Source: Bacillota bacterium (GTDB taxonomy: Bacteria > Bacillota > Clostridia > Peptostreptococcales > Anaerovoracaceae). Taken from it: DNA of 38,455 bases. Shown here one piece after another: positions 33,286-38,455 of this stretch. The stretch lies in NCBI GenBank assembly GCA_022770665.1, contig JALEHL010000132.1, positions 1-38,455 on the forward strand. Direction: 5' to 3'. The translations under genes were made by a program, and so were the position numbers. A model generated the notes under the pieces. That model was not told the origin of the DNA. It made no database searches and was given only the letters and a program-made list of their open reading frames with translations. Numbering within the stretch: the first letter of the stretch is position 1; each line of letters opens with the position of its first letter.

Positions 33286-34062
33286 ATGAAAATTTTTGCG
33301 ATCGGTGATCCCCACCTGTCCTTCGGTGAAGGGGTGCAGAAACCCATGGACATTTTCGGCGGACAGTGGGTCGGCCATACAGAAAAGCTGGAGCAGAACT
33401 GGAGGGCAGAAGTCCGTCCGGAAGACACTGTCATTCTCTGCGGAGATATCTCCTGGGGACTGAAACTGGAAGAAGCAAGGGCTGACCTGGACTGGATCCA
33501 CGATCTTCCGGGAAAGAAGCTCCTGTTTAAAGGCAACCATGATCTGTGGTGGCAGGCGATCAGCCGGCTGAACCGCCTGTATGACGACGGCACGATGCTC
33601 TTCCTGCAGAACCGGTGCTTCGTGGCGGAGGATCCTGAAAGCGGAAGACGGGCGGCGATCTGCGGCACACGGGGCTGGACCTGCCCGGGCAGCGAGGGTT
33701 TCGGCGATCATGACCGGAAAATTTATGAACGGGAGCTGCTGCGGCTCCGGTTTTCCCTGGAGGAAGGAAGAAGATCCGGTGCAGAGCAACTGATCGGTGT
33801 GCTTCATTTCCCGCCGACCAATGATATGCAGCAGGAGAGCGGATTCACACAGCTGATGCGGGAGTATGGAGTAAAAACCTGCGTTTACGGTCATCTTCAC
33901 GGAAAAGATGCGTACCGGCACGGAATGCAGGGTATCTATAATGGTGTAGAGTACCGGCTGGTCTCTCTGGATTATGTGGAAGGCATGCCGAGGGAGATTC
34001 TGGATCTGAATCGGGATCCGGCGCCGGGAGAAAAGAAGAATTCGAAGGAGGGGTTGGAATGA
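33286..34062 (+). CDS. Calcineurin-like metallophosphoesterase
   Basis: MKIFAIGDPHLSFG; CGDISWGLKLEEA; LFKGNHDLWW; VYGHLHG. Confidence 0.93.
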   Translation: MKIFAIGDPHLSFGEGVQKPMDIFGGQWVGHTEKLEQNWRAEVRPEDTVILCGDISWGLKLEEARADLDWIHDLPGKKLLFKGNHDLWWQAISRLNRLYDDGTMLFLQNRCFVAEDPESGRRAAICGTRGWTCPGSEGFGDHDRKIYERELLRLRFSLEEGRRSGAEQLIGVLHFPPTNDMQQESGFTQLMREYGVKTCVYGHLHGKDAYRHGMQGIYNGVEYRLVSLDYVEGMPREILDLNRDPAPGEKKNSKEGLE

Positions 34063-35231
34063 AAAAAGCAGTTGTCATCGTTACAGACAGTTTAGGAGCA
34101 GGCGCGCTGCCGGATGCAGCCGCATACGGCGATGCGGGCGCAGACACCTTCGGGCATATCTGGGAAGCCTGCGGCGGCCTGAAGATTCCGAATCTTCTGA
34201 AACTTGGATGGGGAAACATCGACGGGATTTGCGGCGGACGGCTTGCAGTGAAGGATCCGCAGGGGTGCTTCGGCAAAATGGCGGAGATCTCCCGCGGCAA
34301 GGACACGACCACAGGGCACTGGGAAATTGCCGGTCTTCGGACCGATGTGCCTTTCAAAACATATCCGCAGGGTTTTCCGGCGGCGTTTATGGAAAAATTT
34401 CAGGCGGAGATCGGACGGGAATGCCTGGGAAACTATCCGGCATCCGGCACGGAGATCATCGAAACACTGGGACCGGAGCATGAAGCGACCGGAAAACCGA
34501 TCGTATACACTTCTGCAGACAGCGTTTTTCAGATTGCGGCAAATACGGATGTGATTCCGCTGGAGGAGCTGTATGCGATCTGCCGGACGGCCCGTCGGCT
34601 TCTGACAGGGGACTGGGCCTGCGGCAGAGTCATCGCCCGTCCGTACATCATGAAAAACGGAAAACGGGAGAGAACCAGCGACCGCCGGGATTATGCCGTC
34701 ACACCGCCGGCAGACACGACACTGGATCTGGTGGCGGCTGCAGGGAAAACCGTATACGGTGTCGGAAAGATCGGCGATATTTTCAATCAGAAGGGCCTGA
34801 CAGAAAGCGTGCATACGGTCAGCAATATGGACGGCGTCGACAAGACCATAGAAGCGCTGGGCATGGATTTTGAGGGATTCCTGTTCACGAACCTGGTCGA
34901 CTTTGATTCCAAGTACGGTCACCGGAGAGATCCGGAAGGATACGGCCGCTGCATCGAGGAGTTTGATGCGCGGATTCCGGAAATTCTGGACGCACTGGGA
35001 GAAGAGGATATCCTGATGATCTGCGCCGATCACGGCAATGATCCGACTGCGCCGGGCACCGATCACACCAGAGAATATGTGCCGCTGCTGGTTTACGGCA
35101 GAGGCTGCAGAAGCGGTGTGAACCTGGGAATCCGCAGGACGTTCGCGGATATCGGCGCGACAGTCAGCGACTTTCTGGGTGCAGAGTCCACCGGCATAGG
35201 GGAAAGCTTTAAGGAGGCGATTCTGAAATGA
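34059..35231 (+). CDS. deoB: Phosphopentomutase
   Basis: KAVVIVTDSLGAGALPDAAAYGDAGADTFGHI; GKDTTTGHWEIAGL; ADHGNDPTAPGTDHTREYVPLL; 4-bp overlaps with both neighbours. Confidence 0.97.
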   Translation: MKKAVVIVTDSLGAGALPDAAAYGDAGADTFGHIWEACGGLKIPNLLKLGWGNIDGICGGRLAVKDPQGCFGKMAEISRGKDTTTGHWEIAGLRTDVPFKTYPQGFPAAFMEKFQAEIGRECLGNYPASGTEIIETLGPEHEATGKPIVYTSADSVFQIAANTDVIPLEELYAICRTARRLLTGDWACGRVIARPYIMKNGKRERTSDRRDYAVTPPADTTLDLVAAAGKTVYGVGKIGDIFNQKGLTESVHTVSNMDGVDKTIEALGMDFEGFLFTNLVDFDSKYGHRRDPEGYGRCIEEFDARIPEILDALGEEDILMICADHGNDPTAPGTDHTREYVPLLVYGRGCRSGVNLGIRRTFADIGATVSDFLGAESTGIGESFKEAILK

Positions 35232-36550
35232 ACATGGTTGCACTGATTCAGAAAAAAAAGGACGGAAAGGCCCTGCAGCGGGAGGAGATCCAGTGGATCA
35301 TCGACGGCTATGTGGCCGGCAGCATTCCGGACTATCAGATTTCAGCGCTCCTGATGGCAATCTGCTTTCAGGGGCTGGATAAAGAGGAAACGTTTGCTCT
35401 CACAGAAGCAATGCGCGATTCCGGCGACACGATTGATTTGTCACCAATTAATGGGATCAAGGTTGACAAACATTCCACCGGCGGCGTAGGGGATAAAACA
35501 ACCCTGGTTGTAGCACCGCTGGCATCCGCCTGCGGCGTACCTGTGGCGAAGATGAGCGGACGCGGCCTCGGCTTTACCGGCGGCACGGTGGATAAGATGG
35601 AATCCATTCCGGGATTCCGCACCACGCTGGAACCGTCGGAATTTCTGGCGCAGGTCAATGCGATCGGCATGGCTGTCATCGGGCAGACAGCCCATATCAC
35701 GCCGGCAGACAAAAAGCTGTATGCACTGCGGGATGTGACGGCGACTGTGGACAATTTCGGCCTCATCGCCTCCAGCATTATGAGTAAGAAGCTGGCGGCC
35801 GGCAGTGATGCCATCGTCCTTGATGTAAAGGTTGGCGACGGCGCGTTCATGGAAAATCTGGAGGATGCGGTGACACTGGCGAAACTGATGGTGGAAATCG
35901 GTAATTCCGCCGGACGTCGTACGGTGGCGGCCATTACAGAGATGGGACAGCCCCTGGGTAAGGCAGTAGGAAACAGCCTGGAAGTGATAGAGGCCATCGA
36001 GACCCTGAAAGGAAACGGCCCTGCGGATATCACGGAGCTGGCACTGAAACTGTCCGGCATTATGGTGTACCTGGGCGGAAAGGCATCATCCCTGGAAGAA
36101 GGCATGGAGAAGACCCGGGCGGCGCTCACAGACGGCAGAGGGCTTTCCCAGCTGCGACGGTTTATCGCGGCGCAGGGAGGGAATGAAGCTGTGGTGGATG
36201 ATTACAGCCTGTTCCCGCAGCACACGGTGGAGAAGAAGCTGACGGCGGAGACATCCGGCTATGTGCACCGGATCGAGGCCAGATGTATCGGGCTGGCATC
36301 ACAGCATACCGGTGCAGGCAGAGCGACGAAAGAGGATACGGTGGATCTGTCTGCCGGAGTCTATGTTCACAGAAAAGTGGGCGATGCGGTACAGGCCGGT
36401 GAAGTTCTGGCCACCTTCTACGGCAATGATGAGGCGAAAGTGGATGCGGCCGCAGCAGAGGCATCGAAGGCATTCACCATCGGAACGGATCCCGTGGAGG
36501 CGCCGAAGCTGATCAAAGAGATCATCGGGCTGGAAACAGAATGGAATTAA
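35228..36550 (+). CDS. pdp: Pyrimidine-nucleoside phosphorylase
   Basis: IIDGYVAGSIPDYQISALLMAI; VDKHSTGGVGDKTTLVVAPL; SGRGLGFTGGTVDKMESIPG. Confidence 0.95.
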   Translation: MNMVALIQKKKDGKALQREEIQWIIDGYVAGSIPDYQISALLMAICFQGLDKEETFALTEAMRDSGDTIDLSPINGIKVDKHSTGGVGDKTTLVVAPLASACGVPVAKMSGRGLGFTGGTVDKMESIPGFRTTLEPSEFLAQVNAIGMAVIGQTAHITPADKKLYALRDVTATVDNFGLIASSIMSKKLAAGSDAIVLDVKVGDGAFMENLEDAVTLAKLMVEIGNSAGRRTVAAITEMGQPLGKAVGNSLEVIEAIETLKGNGPADITELALKLSGIMVYLGGKASSLEEGMEKTRAALTDGRGLSQLRRFIAAQGGNEAVVDDYSLFPQHTVEKKLTAETSGYVHRIEARCIGLASQHTGAGRATKEDTVDLSAGVYVHRKVGDAVQAGEVLATFYGNDEAKVDAAAAEASKAFTIGTDPVEAPKLIKEIIGLETEWN

Positions 36551-36691: not shown

Positions 36692-36753
36692 CCGCCCTTT
36701 CGCATAGATTGATGTGACGATGCACAGAAACTATGGGAAAGGGCGGCGTTTTT
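36692..36753 (+). terminator. Terminator/attenuator-like hairpin abutting the carboxypeptidase start codon
   Basis: CCGCCCTTTCGCATAG (36692-36707) pairs with CTATGGGAAAGGGCGG (36731-36746), 15/16, followed by CGTTTTT and ATG at 36754. Confidence 0.65.
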
Positions 36754-37305
36754 ATGTGGAAAAAAGAAGCGGACGGCCGGAGCAGTCACATATGGAAGCT
36801 GAAACCGGGACAGGGTACCAGAAGGGTGATCTCCGCATGCCTCGGGTGTGCGCTGATTCTGGGCGCTTTTGCAGGTGTCAGCCGACTGCTGCCGAAGCAG
36901 GAATCCATTCTCATTGATGAAAACACAGTATTTACTACAGCGGATGTTCCGATGAAGGATGAGAGAAAGACAGGACTGCAGATTGCAGCAAAGGGAGCTG
37001 TTCTGATGGATGCTTCCACCGGCAAGGTGCTGTTTGAACAGGACAGCCATAAGGAACTGCCGCCGGCCTCTGTGACGAAGGTGATGACCATGCTTCTGGT
37101 GATGGAAGCTGCAGATGCCGGAAAGATCACCCTCGATGACAGGGTGACCATTTCTGAGCGGGCCGCTTCCATGGGAGGAAGCCAGATGTACATGGAAGCG
37201 GGTGAGACCCACACCGTGGCAGAGCTGATGAAGGGTGTCGCCATGGCCAGCGCCAATGACGGATGTGTGGCATTGAAAAAGGAGAACGGAAAAGGAGAAA
37301 TTTGA
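36754..37305 (+). pseudogene. 3'-truncated D-alanyl-D-alanine carboxypeptidase (peptidase S11), interrupted by a mobile element
   Basis: Has SVTK (SxxK) and SAND (SxN) motifs but ends abnormally at GCVALKKENGKGEI* with no KTG motif; next gene is a Rep initiator. Confidence 0.8.
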
Positions 37306-37420
37306 ATTACGTATCTGCGACAGTATATATAATGATTCTATGATATGCGATTTCAGGAGCAGTGGCAAGAGTAACCTTGTGCAGCTGCTTTTTTATTACA
37401 GAAAGAGATGGAGAACAGAT

Positions 37421-38344
37421 ATGGGATTTGACTACTTTTATCCGGAGCAGGCAGAGCAGTTTGCTTTTTTCCGCATTCCGAAAGCGTTGTTTCGGGACAG
37501 ACAGTTTAAGAACATCAGCACCGATGCAAAGGTTTTATATGGCCTGATGCTGGACCGGGTTTCTCTTTCTGTGAAAAACCAGTGGGTCGATCAGAAAGGA
37601 AGAGTATATATCATCTTTACGCTGGAAGAGATCATGGAGGAACTGGGCTGTGCCAACCAGAAGGCAACCAAGCTGGTGGTTGAACTGGAAGAGAAAGCAG
37701 GACTGATCGAAAGAAAGCGTCAGGGACTGGGAAAACCAACGCTGATCTATGTAAAGAACTTCTCCAGAGAGCGTGCGGAGCCGGAAATTCAGCCGGATTC
37801 CCAGACTCATGATTTTCATGATTCACAGAGTCATGAAAATCATGAATCAAGAATCATGGATCCCATGAATCCAGACTCACGAAAATCATGGTCAAATAAG
37901 ACTGAATCTATTAAAACTGATTCTAATAATACTGATCCCTTCCCTTCTTCCGAAGAGGAGCAGGAAGGGAACGGGGCGGAATGGAGAACAGAGATTGAAA
38001 ATCTTCTTCGGGAGCAGCTGATGATGGACAGGCTTCTGCAGGAACGCCCGGGTGACAGAGATCTGCTTATGGAAATATTACAGCTTCTGGCGGACACGCT
38101 TTGCACCCACAGGAAAACCATACGGCTAGCCCGGGATGATAAACCGGCAGCAGAGGTGCGAAGGCAGCTGCTGCAGCTTGGCCCGGAGCATATCCGGTTC
38201 GTTCTGGACTGCATGGCGGAAAACACGACGAAGATCAAAAATATGCGGCAATACCTCCTTACGGCATTGTACAACGCACCGATGACCATAAACAGTTACT
38301 ATGCATCGCTGGCGCAGCATGATATTGCCAGCGGAAGAATCTGA
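37421..38344 (+). CDS. Replication initiator protein A (RepA_N family)
   Basis: QAEQFAFFRIPKALFRDRQFKNISTDAKVLYGLMLDRVSLSVKNQWVDQKGRVYIIFTLEEIMEELGCANQKATKLVVELEEKAGLIERKRQGLGKPTLIYVKNF. Confidence 0.9.
   Translation: MGFDYFYPEQAEQFAFFRIPKALFRDRQFKNISTDAKVLYGLMLDRVSLSVKNQWVDQKGRVYIIFTLEEIMEELGCANQKATKLVVELEEKAGLIERKRQGLGKPTLIYVKNFSRERAEPEIQPDSQTHDFHDSQSHENHESRIMDPMNPDSRKSWSNKTESIKTDSNNTDPFPSSEEEQEGNGAEWRTEIENLLREQLMMDRLLQERPGDRDLLMEILQLLADTLCTHRKTIRLARDDKPAAEVRRQLLQLGPEHIRFVLDCMAENTTKIKNMRQYLLTALYNAPMTINSYYASLAQHDIASGRI
37801..37939 (+). repeat. Iteron-like cluster inside the rep coding sequence
   Basis: TCATGATTTTCATGA (37807-37821) and TCATGAAAATCATGA (37831-37845) form a 15-bp inverted repeat; related TCACGAAAATCATGG at 37877; then three 15-bp tandem units at 37895-37939. 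Confidence 0.75.
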
Positions 38345-38361: not shown

Positions 38362-38455
38362 ATGACGAAAAAGACAAAAGTAATCGCAGTGGTAAATCAG
38401 AAGGGCGGTGTCGGGAAAACGACGACGACCTTAAACCTGGGGGTCGGACTGGCAC
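38362..38455 (+). CDS. ParA/Soj-family ATPase, N-terminal fragment at window edge
   Basis: MTKKTKVIAVVNQKGGVGKTTTTLNLGVGLA, deviant Walker A. Confidence 0.95.
   Translation, partial: MTKKTKVIAVVNQKGGVGKTTTTLNLGVGLA

Follow-up and report, generated by a model that had tools for sequence, protein, structure and literature searches.

A D-Ala-D-Ala carboxypeptidase gene in a Bacillota genome is very probably split by a mobile element integrated at a conserved recombinase target

Introduction

What has displaced the second half of a cell-wall gene that reads normally as far as its second active-site motif? The question is raised by the window analysed here, which is the whole of contig C141 (38,455 bases) from a 157-contig, 2.30-Mb metagenome-assembled genome (MAG) of 84.6% completeness. 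Near the end of the window, the frame of an S11 D-Ala-D-Ala carboxypeptidase passes through SxxK (SVTK) and SxN (SAN) and then changes to KKENGKGEI and a stop codon, as a preliminary description of the DNA had correctly read it. That description took the break to be a mobile-element junction, left by the integration of an ICE or plasmid-like element into the gene, and pointed to the missing C-terminus with its KTG motif, an integrase and a direct repeat of the junction as what should be looked for. All three were found in the same MAG, the C-terminus and the integrase on another contig and the repeat at both junctions.

Results

The start codon of the carboxypeptidase was set at the ATG at 36754 by comparison with relatives, the open reading frame as listed beginning at 36733 (Table 1). 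Against Pfam Peptidase_S11 the frame gives E=2.6e-33 and covers only positions 7-112 of the 239 in the profile. DNA alignments of the window to five relatives (G001-G004 and G020, four of them from the same genus) all end at base 37271; the break is sharp, and lies four bases before the position near 37275 that was first given for it. The gene is full length in the four congeners G001-G004, whose orthologues extend about 250 residues past the window break, and relatives' genes encode 420-445 residues. An NCBIfam search of the carboxypeptidase returned no specific DacF or DacB equivalog above cut-off, and we therefore name it as neither.

The leader of the interrupted gene holds a hairpin whose 3' arm contains a probable ribosome-binding site and which is followed by a U-run. 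It is kept with altered sequence in four of five genus members, is weaker in G003, and is also seen in L034, L036 and L037. The hairpin may block translation on read-through transcripts or may end upstream transcription; an Rfam search of the leader gave nothing credible.

Table 1. Coordinates of the features around the break in the window
Feature	Position	Strand	Basis
Host flank: phosphopentomutase and pyrimidine-nucleoside phosphorylase genes	34059..36550	+	Named from sequence; aligns with G004/G003
Leader hairpin of the interrupted gene, ending at the start codon	36689..36753	+	MFE -33.2 kcal/mol, z -6.7
5' half of the S11 D-Ala-D-Ala carboxypeptidase gene (signal/TM segment, SVTK, SAN)	36754..37271	+	Peptidase_S11 profile, alignments to relatives
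9-bp crossover core ATGTGTGGC	37263..37271	+	Common to the window (left) and C97 (right) junctions
Left end of the element, attL arm, ATTGAAAAAGGAGAACGGAAAAGGAGAAATTTGA	37272..37305	+	Inverted-repeat match to the right end on C97
RepA_N/DUF6017 replication-initiator gene, first of the element	37421..38344	+	Pfam RepA_N 6.6e-30, DUF6017 1.6e-37
First part of a ParA-type partition ATPase gene; the contig stops within it	38362..38455	+	AAA_31 E=1.1e-8

It had been observed that no remnant of the gene is visible downstream of the break, which is correct for the window; a search with the missing part of the G004 protein located the remainder on contig C97 (9147-9917, minus strand). This C-half encodes 257 aa, starts at the first missing residue, is 84% identical to the relative and carries the KTG motif (GIKTGF), so that the motif set of the family is divided over the two halves, with SVTK and SAN in the window and GIKTGF on C97. 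Beyond it on C97 lie DUF3343 (named by eye), SpoIIGA, SigE and SigG, which places the interrupted gene upstream of DUF3343-spoIIGA-sigE-sigG.

The two junctions share one 9-bp core. At the left junction, in the window, GACGG is followed by ATGTGTGGC and then ATTGAAAAAGG; at the right junction, on C97, TATGCGAC is followed by the same core and then TCTGGCTGAA. Joined through the core, the halves read DGCVALAE in frame, just as in relatives, and it follows from this rejoining that the KKENGKGEI tail (LKKENGKGEI with its leading L) is the translation of the left end of the element. Furthermore, the two element ends pair as an imperfect inverted repeat (GAAAAAGGA...GGAGAAAT) at 20 of 34 positions (P=0.0006 against shuffles), giving the inverted-repeat attP around a short core that is expected of a large serine recombinase. 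Taken together, the two halves, the shared core, the in-frame join and the attP dyad indicate site-specific integration into this cell-wall gene, and neither an assembly artefact nor a native short protein. The window junction was settled by hand and by the dyad, the automatic core search having chosen chance repeats for the window, L127 and L144; among the other split genes tried, the automatic search restored the frame through the S11 site in 11 of 13. The dyad test was weaker for the second element described below and for L139 and L130 (P 0.01-0.04), and missed L121, in which the repeat falls outside the allowed shift.

As had been read from the letters, the broken gene runs into a RepA_N initiator and ParA. 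The initiator matches PF06970 and PF19481 and is followed by the start of a partition gene, the arrangement of a RepA_N replicon. At the opposite end, on C97, a large serine recombinase of 534 aa lies directly upstream of the C-half, about 45 bp from the crossover core, and has the domains of that family (Resolvase PF00239, 1.2e-20; Recombinase PF07508, 4e-23; Zn_ribbon PF13408, 6.4e-15); Pfam finds no DUF4368 in it and no match for the 54-aa ORF that precedes it. At best the recombinase resembles phage proteins at 35% over its full length, with one 30% match among viral contigs, and by kinship it is thus no phage integrase.

The central part of the element lies outside the assembly: an overlap search for a contig following 38455 found none in the MAG beyond C140, and a search for the T4SS coupling protein (PF02534) in the 84.6%-complete MAG found none. 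RepA DNA gave only 67% or ParA-only matches to plasmids and the RepA protein had no match in viral contigs, so that these searches found no complete RepA_N relative to reveal the middle. Given the completeness of the MAG, and since a shared RepA/ParA backbone breaks the assembly at 38455, we infer one continuous element from its two ends.

We then scanned named genomes by recombinase alignment and obtained 80 loci. The gene half adjoining the recombinase came from an S11 gene in 21, from cotJC in 29, from SleB in one and from a PRK06851-like ATPase in two, and S8 protease genes were split in six (one verified by Pfam). Where no target was adjacent, all six loci of the S11 clade had a split S11 gene, or one half of it, further along, eight more had a cotJC half and one more the ATPase. 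In the recombinase tree, the query falls in a clade of 28 rows (27 named genomes and the window; SH-aLRT 100), every one of which lies in a split S11 gene, cut at residues 181-187 (G004 numbering) beside SxN. Its sister clade has cotJC as the target in 41 of 44 rows; the remaining three stop close to the edge of a contig. Together the S11-targeting and cotJC-targeting clades span Lachnospiraceae and Oscillospiraceae. Judged from where these insertions lie, the S11 site is the fixed target of the whole recombinase clade, which goes beyond what the preliminary description had seen. This S11 region is also split in G115 and G074, where the recombinases belong elsewhere in the tree; the site has thus been reached at least twice.

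Most S11 targets of the clade are scpAB-linked genes, and intact S11 paralogues are still present in the genomes searched. The targets of the wider recombinase group are mostly spore or cell-wall genes (S11 beside spoIIGA-sigE-sigG, cotJC and a SleB-like hydrolase). Element sizes, taken where both halves lie on one contig, run from 2.7 kb (G137) to 59 kb (G136) and are mostly 3.6-15 kb, and the elements of relatives that were read contain genes for transporters, for a sigma factor or for a PIN-like protein. The smallest, of 2.7 kb (L139, 8064-12066), has the recombinase and a PIN-like ORF (assigned by eye) between the carboxypeptidase halves.

Several further observations concern related recombinases. 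In the G115 and G074 elements (L111, L112), a protein of 53-80 aa with the pattern NCxVxxxFKxxxEEER...ICRTES, the G115 copy of which has no Pfam match, stands just before the recombinase and is a candidate directionality factor. In L147, L150, L151, L152, L154 and L156, related recombinases lie in S8 subtilase genes at the catalytic-His codons (GHGTH), which on their position are another putative conserved active-site target. Others split an ATPase gene (L091, L093, L094, L181, L184, L192) that is presumably PRK06851-like, has no Pfam match and is a possible sporulation gene.

The MAG also contains a second element, located on contigs C140 (L033, 1-990) and C22 (L085, 6500-8272). Contig C140 is cut off at exactly the base where the window ends; its RepA copy is 96% identical to that in the window, with an in-frame internal deletion of about 150 bp, or some 50 codons of the RepA_N domain (L033, about 749; window 37549-37699 missing); given these missing codons, the C140 initiator may be inactive. 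Flanking the element on C140 is a SleB-like cell-wall hydrolase gene, represented there by its 3' half; the 5' half lies on C22, where it adjoins another large serine recombinase, with about 40% identity to the one on C97. The gene is split at QPG|QF, and the rejoined halves give QPGQFVC, as in relatives. One RepA-ParA module is thus found with two different recombinases, each with its own att site and target gene; both elements come from one MAG and may share a single strain. The same SleB site is also struck in G096 (L186).

To see how such elements move, we compared them with their hosts. In an independently assembled Blautia MAG (L120), the right 2.9 kb of the element is 96% identical and ends at the same right junction, while the carboxypeptidase flank differs from the window MAG by 9 substitutions in 56 bases; the element has therefore moved between hosts. 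No RepA match was found in the genome of L120, so the element backbone may differ between hosts. Among ten hosts, recombinase distances track host distances weakly (Mantel r 0.37-0.45), whereas those of the carboxypeptidase half track them well (r 0.76-0.82, the value for the N-half against ScpA being 0.82). The weak recombinase-host correlation indicates that most insertions are horizontal and may be recent, and on this ground we reject the idea that the element has generally been 'domesticated' by vertical descent, although the pair L137/L140 does fit such a history.

The split genes are largely open, with intact frames in 14 of 14 N-halves and 13 of 14 C-halves, the latter having no start signal or SxxK. 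In the pair L137/L140, dS is 0.69 for the recombinase, 0.65-0.76 for the N-half and 1.11 for the C-half (intact neighbours 0.85-1.5), and dN/dS is 0.012-0.043 for the N-half and 0.022 for the C-half (intact neighbours 0.03-0.09). From this one pair, these values suggest selection on the rejoined gene while it is interrupted. Separately, L122 and L125 differ at dS 0.78-1.02 in the 5' carboxypeptidase half and at 0.07-0.20 in the upstream genes, the element and the 3' half, a mosaic that suggests replacement of one half by recombination.

Discussion

These data make it very likely that an integrative mobile element was inserted by site-specific recombination just after SxN of the S11 carboxypeptidase, at a conserved target and in a manner reversible in principle, with RepA_N/ParA at its left end and the recombinase on C97 at its right. 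Comparison shows that the recombinase recognises a conserved target immediately past SxN, a stretch that codes for D-A/G-C-V-A, and that all of its closest relatives, from other gut Firmicutes, do likewise. In the mechanism that we propose, excision through attL x attR, with a directionality factor besides the recombinase, would circularise the element, perhaps leaving the circle to be held by RepA/ParA, and would restore the intact gene, in which case the damage to the host is reversible.

An extension of this explanation is that the element is developmentally excised, like those of the skin/sigK, SPbeta/spsM and gin/gerE type: the recombinase would remove it in sporulating cells, the split being tolerated or useful during vegetative growth. 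That targets are mostly spore or cell-wall genes, that 13 of 14 split C-halves stay open, that the L137/L140 halves are as constrained as intact neighbours and that elements can be as small as 2.7 kb all speak for it. However, the elements mostly move between hosts, so intact halves may just mean recent insertion; the S11 targets of the clade are mostly scpAB-linked, a setting in which a sporulation role would be conjectural; and the genomes searched still have intact S11 paralogues. An excision programmed into sporulation is plausible, and we put the developmental explanation at somewhat less than an even chance. Equally tentative is a broader proposal, that one lineage of recombinases among gut Firmicutes has come to specialise in conserved codons within genes for the spore and the cell wall (S11 SxN, cotJC, sleB and others), that the elements are removable interruptions whose excision in developing cells would switch the gene on, and that several genes per genome could be interrupted in this way.

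A self-transmissible ICE, with a conjugation module in the unassembled middle, seems unlikely. Clostridial ICEs are known that have RepA_N/ParA and a serine recombinase at their opposite ends, which matches the two ends found here; moreover, the assembly stops at one and the same base in both RepA-ParA copies, and a long middle common to the two could lie concealed there. Yet PF02534 was not found in the MAG, same-clade elements are mostly 2.7-15 kb and most of them too small for conjugation genes, and those read have the transporter, sigma-factor or PIN-like genes noted above. Of the two names first proposed, plasmid-like suits the RepA_N/ParA end and ICE is the less likely.

The preliminary description had itself named two findings that would overturn it, an assembly artefact and relatives with the same short carboxypeptidase. 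A chimeric contig or a strain-mixing artefact of metagenome assembly might be suspected because the contig stops 1.2 kb beyond the junction, at the very base where a 96% similar RepA copy also breaks off, but it is very improbable in the face of reciprocal halves that share a core and rejoin in frame, an attP dyad rebuilt across two contigs, the same right junction in the unrelated L120 assembly and the same split site in 27 other genomes. Neither a carboxypeptidase that is naturally short nor a pseudogene of the usual kind, cut off by mutation, has anything but the window ORF itself in its favour, and both can practically be dismissed in view of the full-length orthologues in four congeners and a reciprocal half that is present and open.

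For the integrated element, the nearest known counterparts are the sporulation gene-intervening elements gin, skin, SPbeta and yin. The gin element in gerE of Bacillus cereus ATCC10987 is 28.6 kb long, has three recombinases and the RDF GirX, and its excision during sporulation has been shown (PMC5595907). It is likewise a non-phage element with a serine recombinase that splits a short coding gene, with a 9-bp shared core, in-frame restoration and inverted-repeat att sites; in contrast to gin, the target here is an S11 carboxypeptidase, the element has a RepA_N/ParA end and its excision is predicted from sequence alone. In the accessible parts of the papers on skin in sigK (B. subtilis; C. difficile, PMC5025042), SPbeta in spsM (PMC4191935) and yin in yabG (PMC10747680), these are prophage-like elements with demonstrated sporulation excision. 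They resemble the present case in that a large serine recombinase element interrupts a sporulation-linked gene with precise junctions and, in C. difficile skin, in that the recombinase gene immediately precedes the 3' half (PMC5025042); no S11, cotJC or SleB target is named in those parts. Of the marks of a skin- or gin-type element, precise insertion, in-frame restoration on the level of sequence and a recombinase gene at the end can be read at this locus.

The clade as a whole is also comparable with cases in the main text of Durrant et al. (PMC10083194), where distant large serine recombinases converge on one conserved coding site (prolyl isomerase, magnesium chelatase/ATP-dependent protease); that text makes no mention of carboxypeptidase, coat protein or Lachnospiraceae. 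It links DUF4368 to a multi-targeting recombinase clade (PMC10083194). As in TndX/Tn5397, a large serine recombinase stands at one end of a clostridial integrative element; unlike that multi-targeting type, the C97 recombinase has no DUF4368 and its clade a single target in 28 of 28 rows, and it does not belong there. We found no dac or cotJC intervening elements, and no S11, cotJC or SleB targets, in the open-access literature, relative to which these targets are new, while conserved single-site targeting is, from the main text of PMC10083194, already known in general.

Split sporulation genes have previously been scattered cases (sigK, spsM, gerE, yabG). Here every member of one recombinase clade (28/28) is placed in a cell-wall carboxypeptidase gene at its active-site codons, members of the sister clade are nearly always in cotJC (41/44), and two such elements occur in one MAG. 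Should excision be timed by development, genes that many gut spore-formers have under a broken annotation would be usable after all. In addition, the set supplies many recombinases with matched attP/attB sites, and provides a natural example of how recombinase exchange alters the target of an element.
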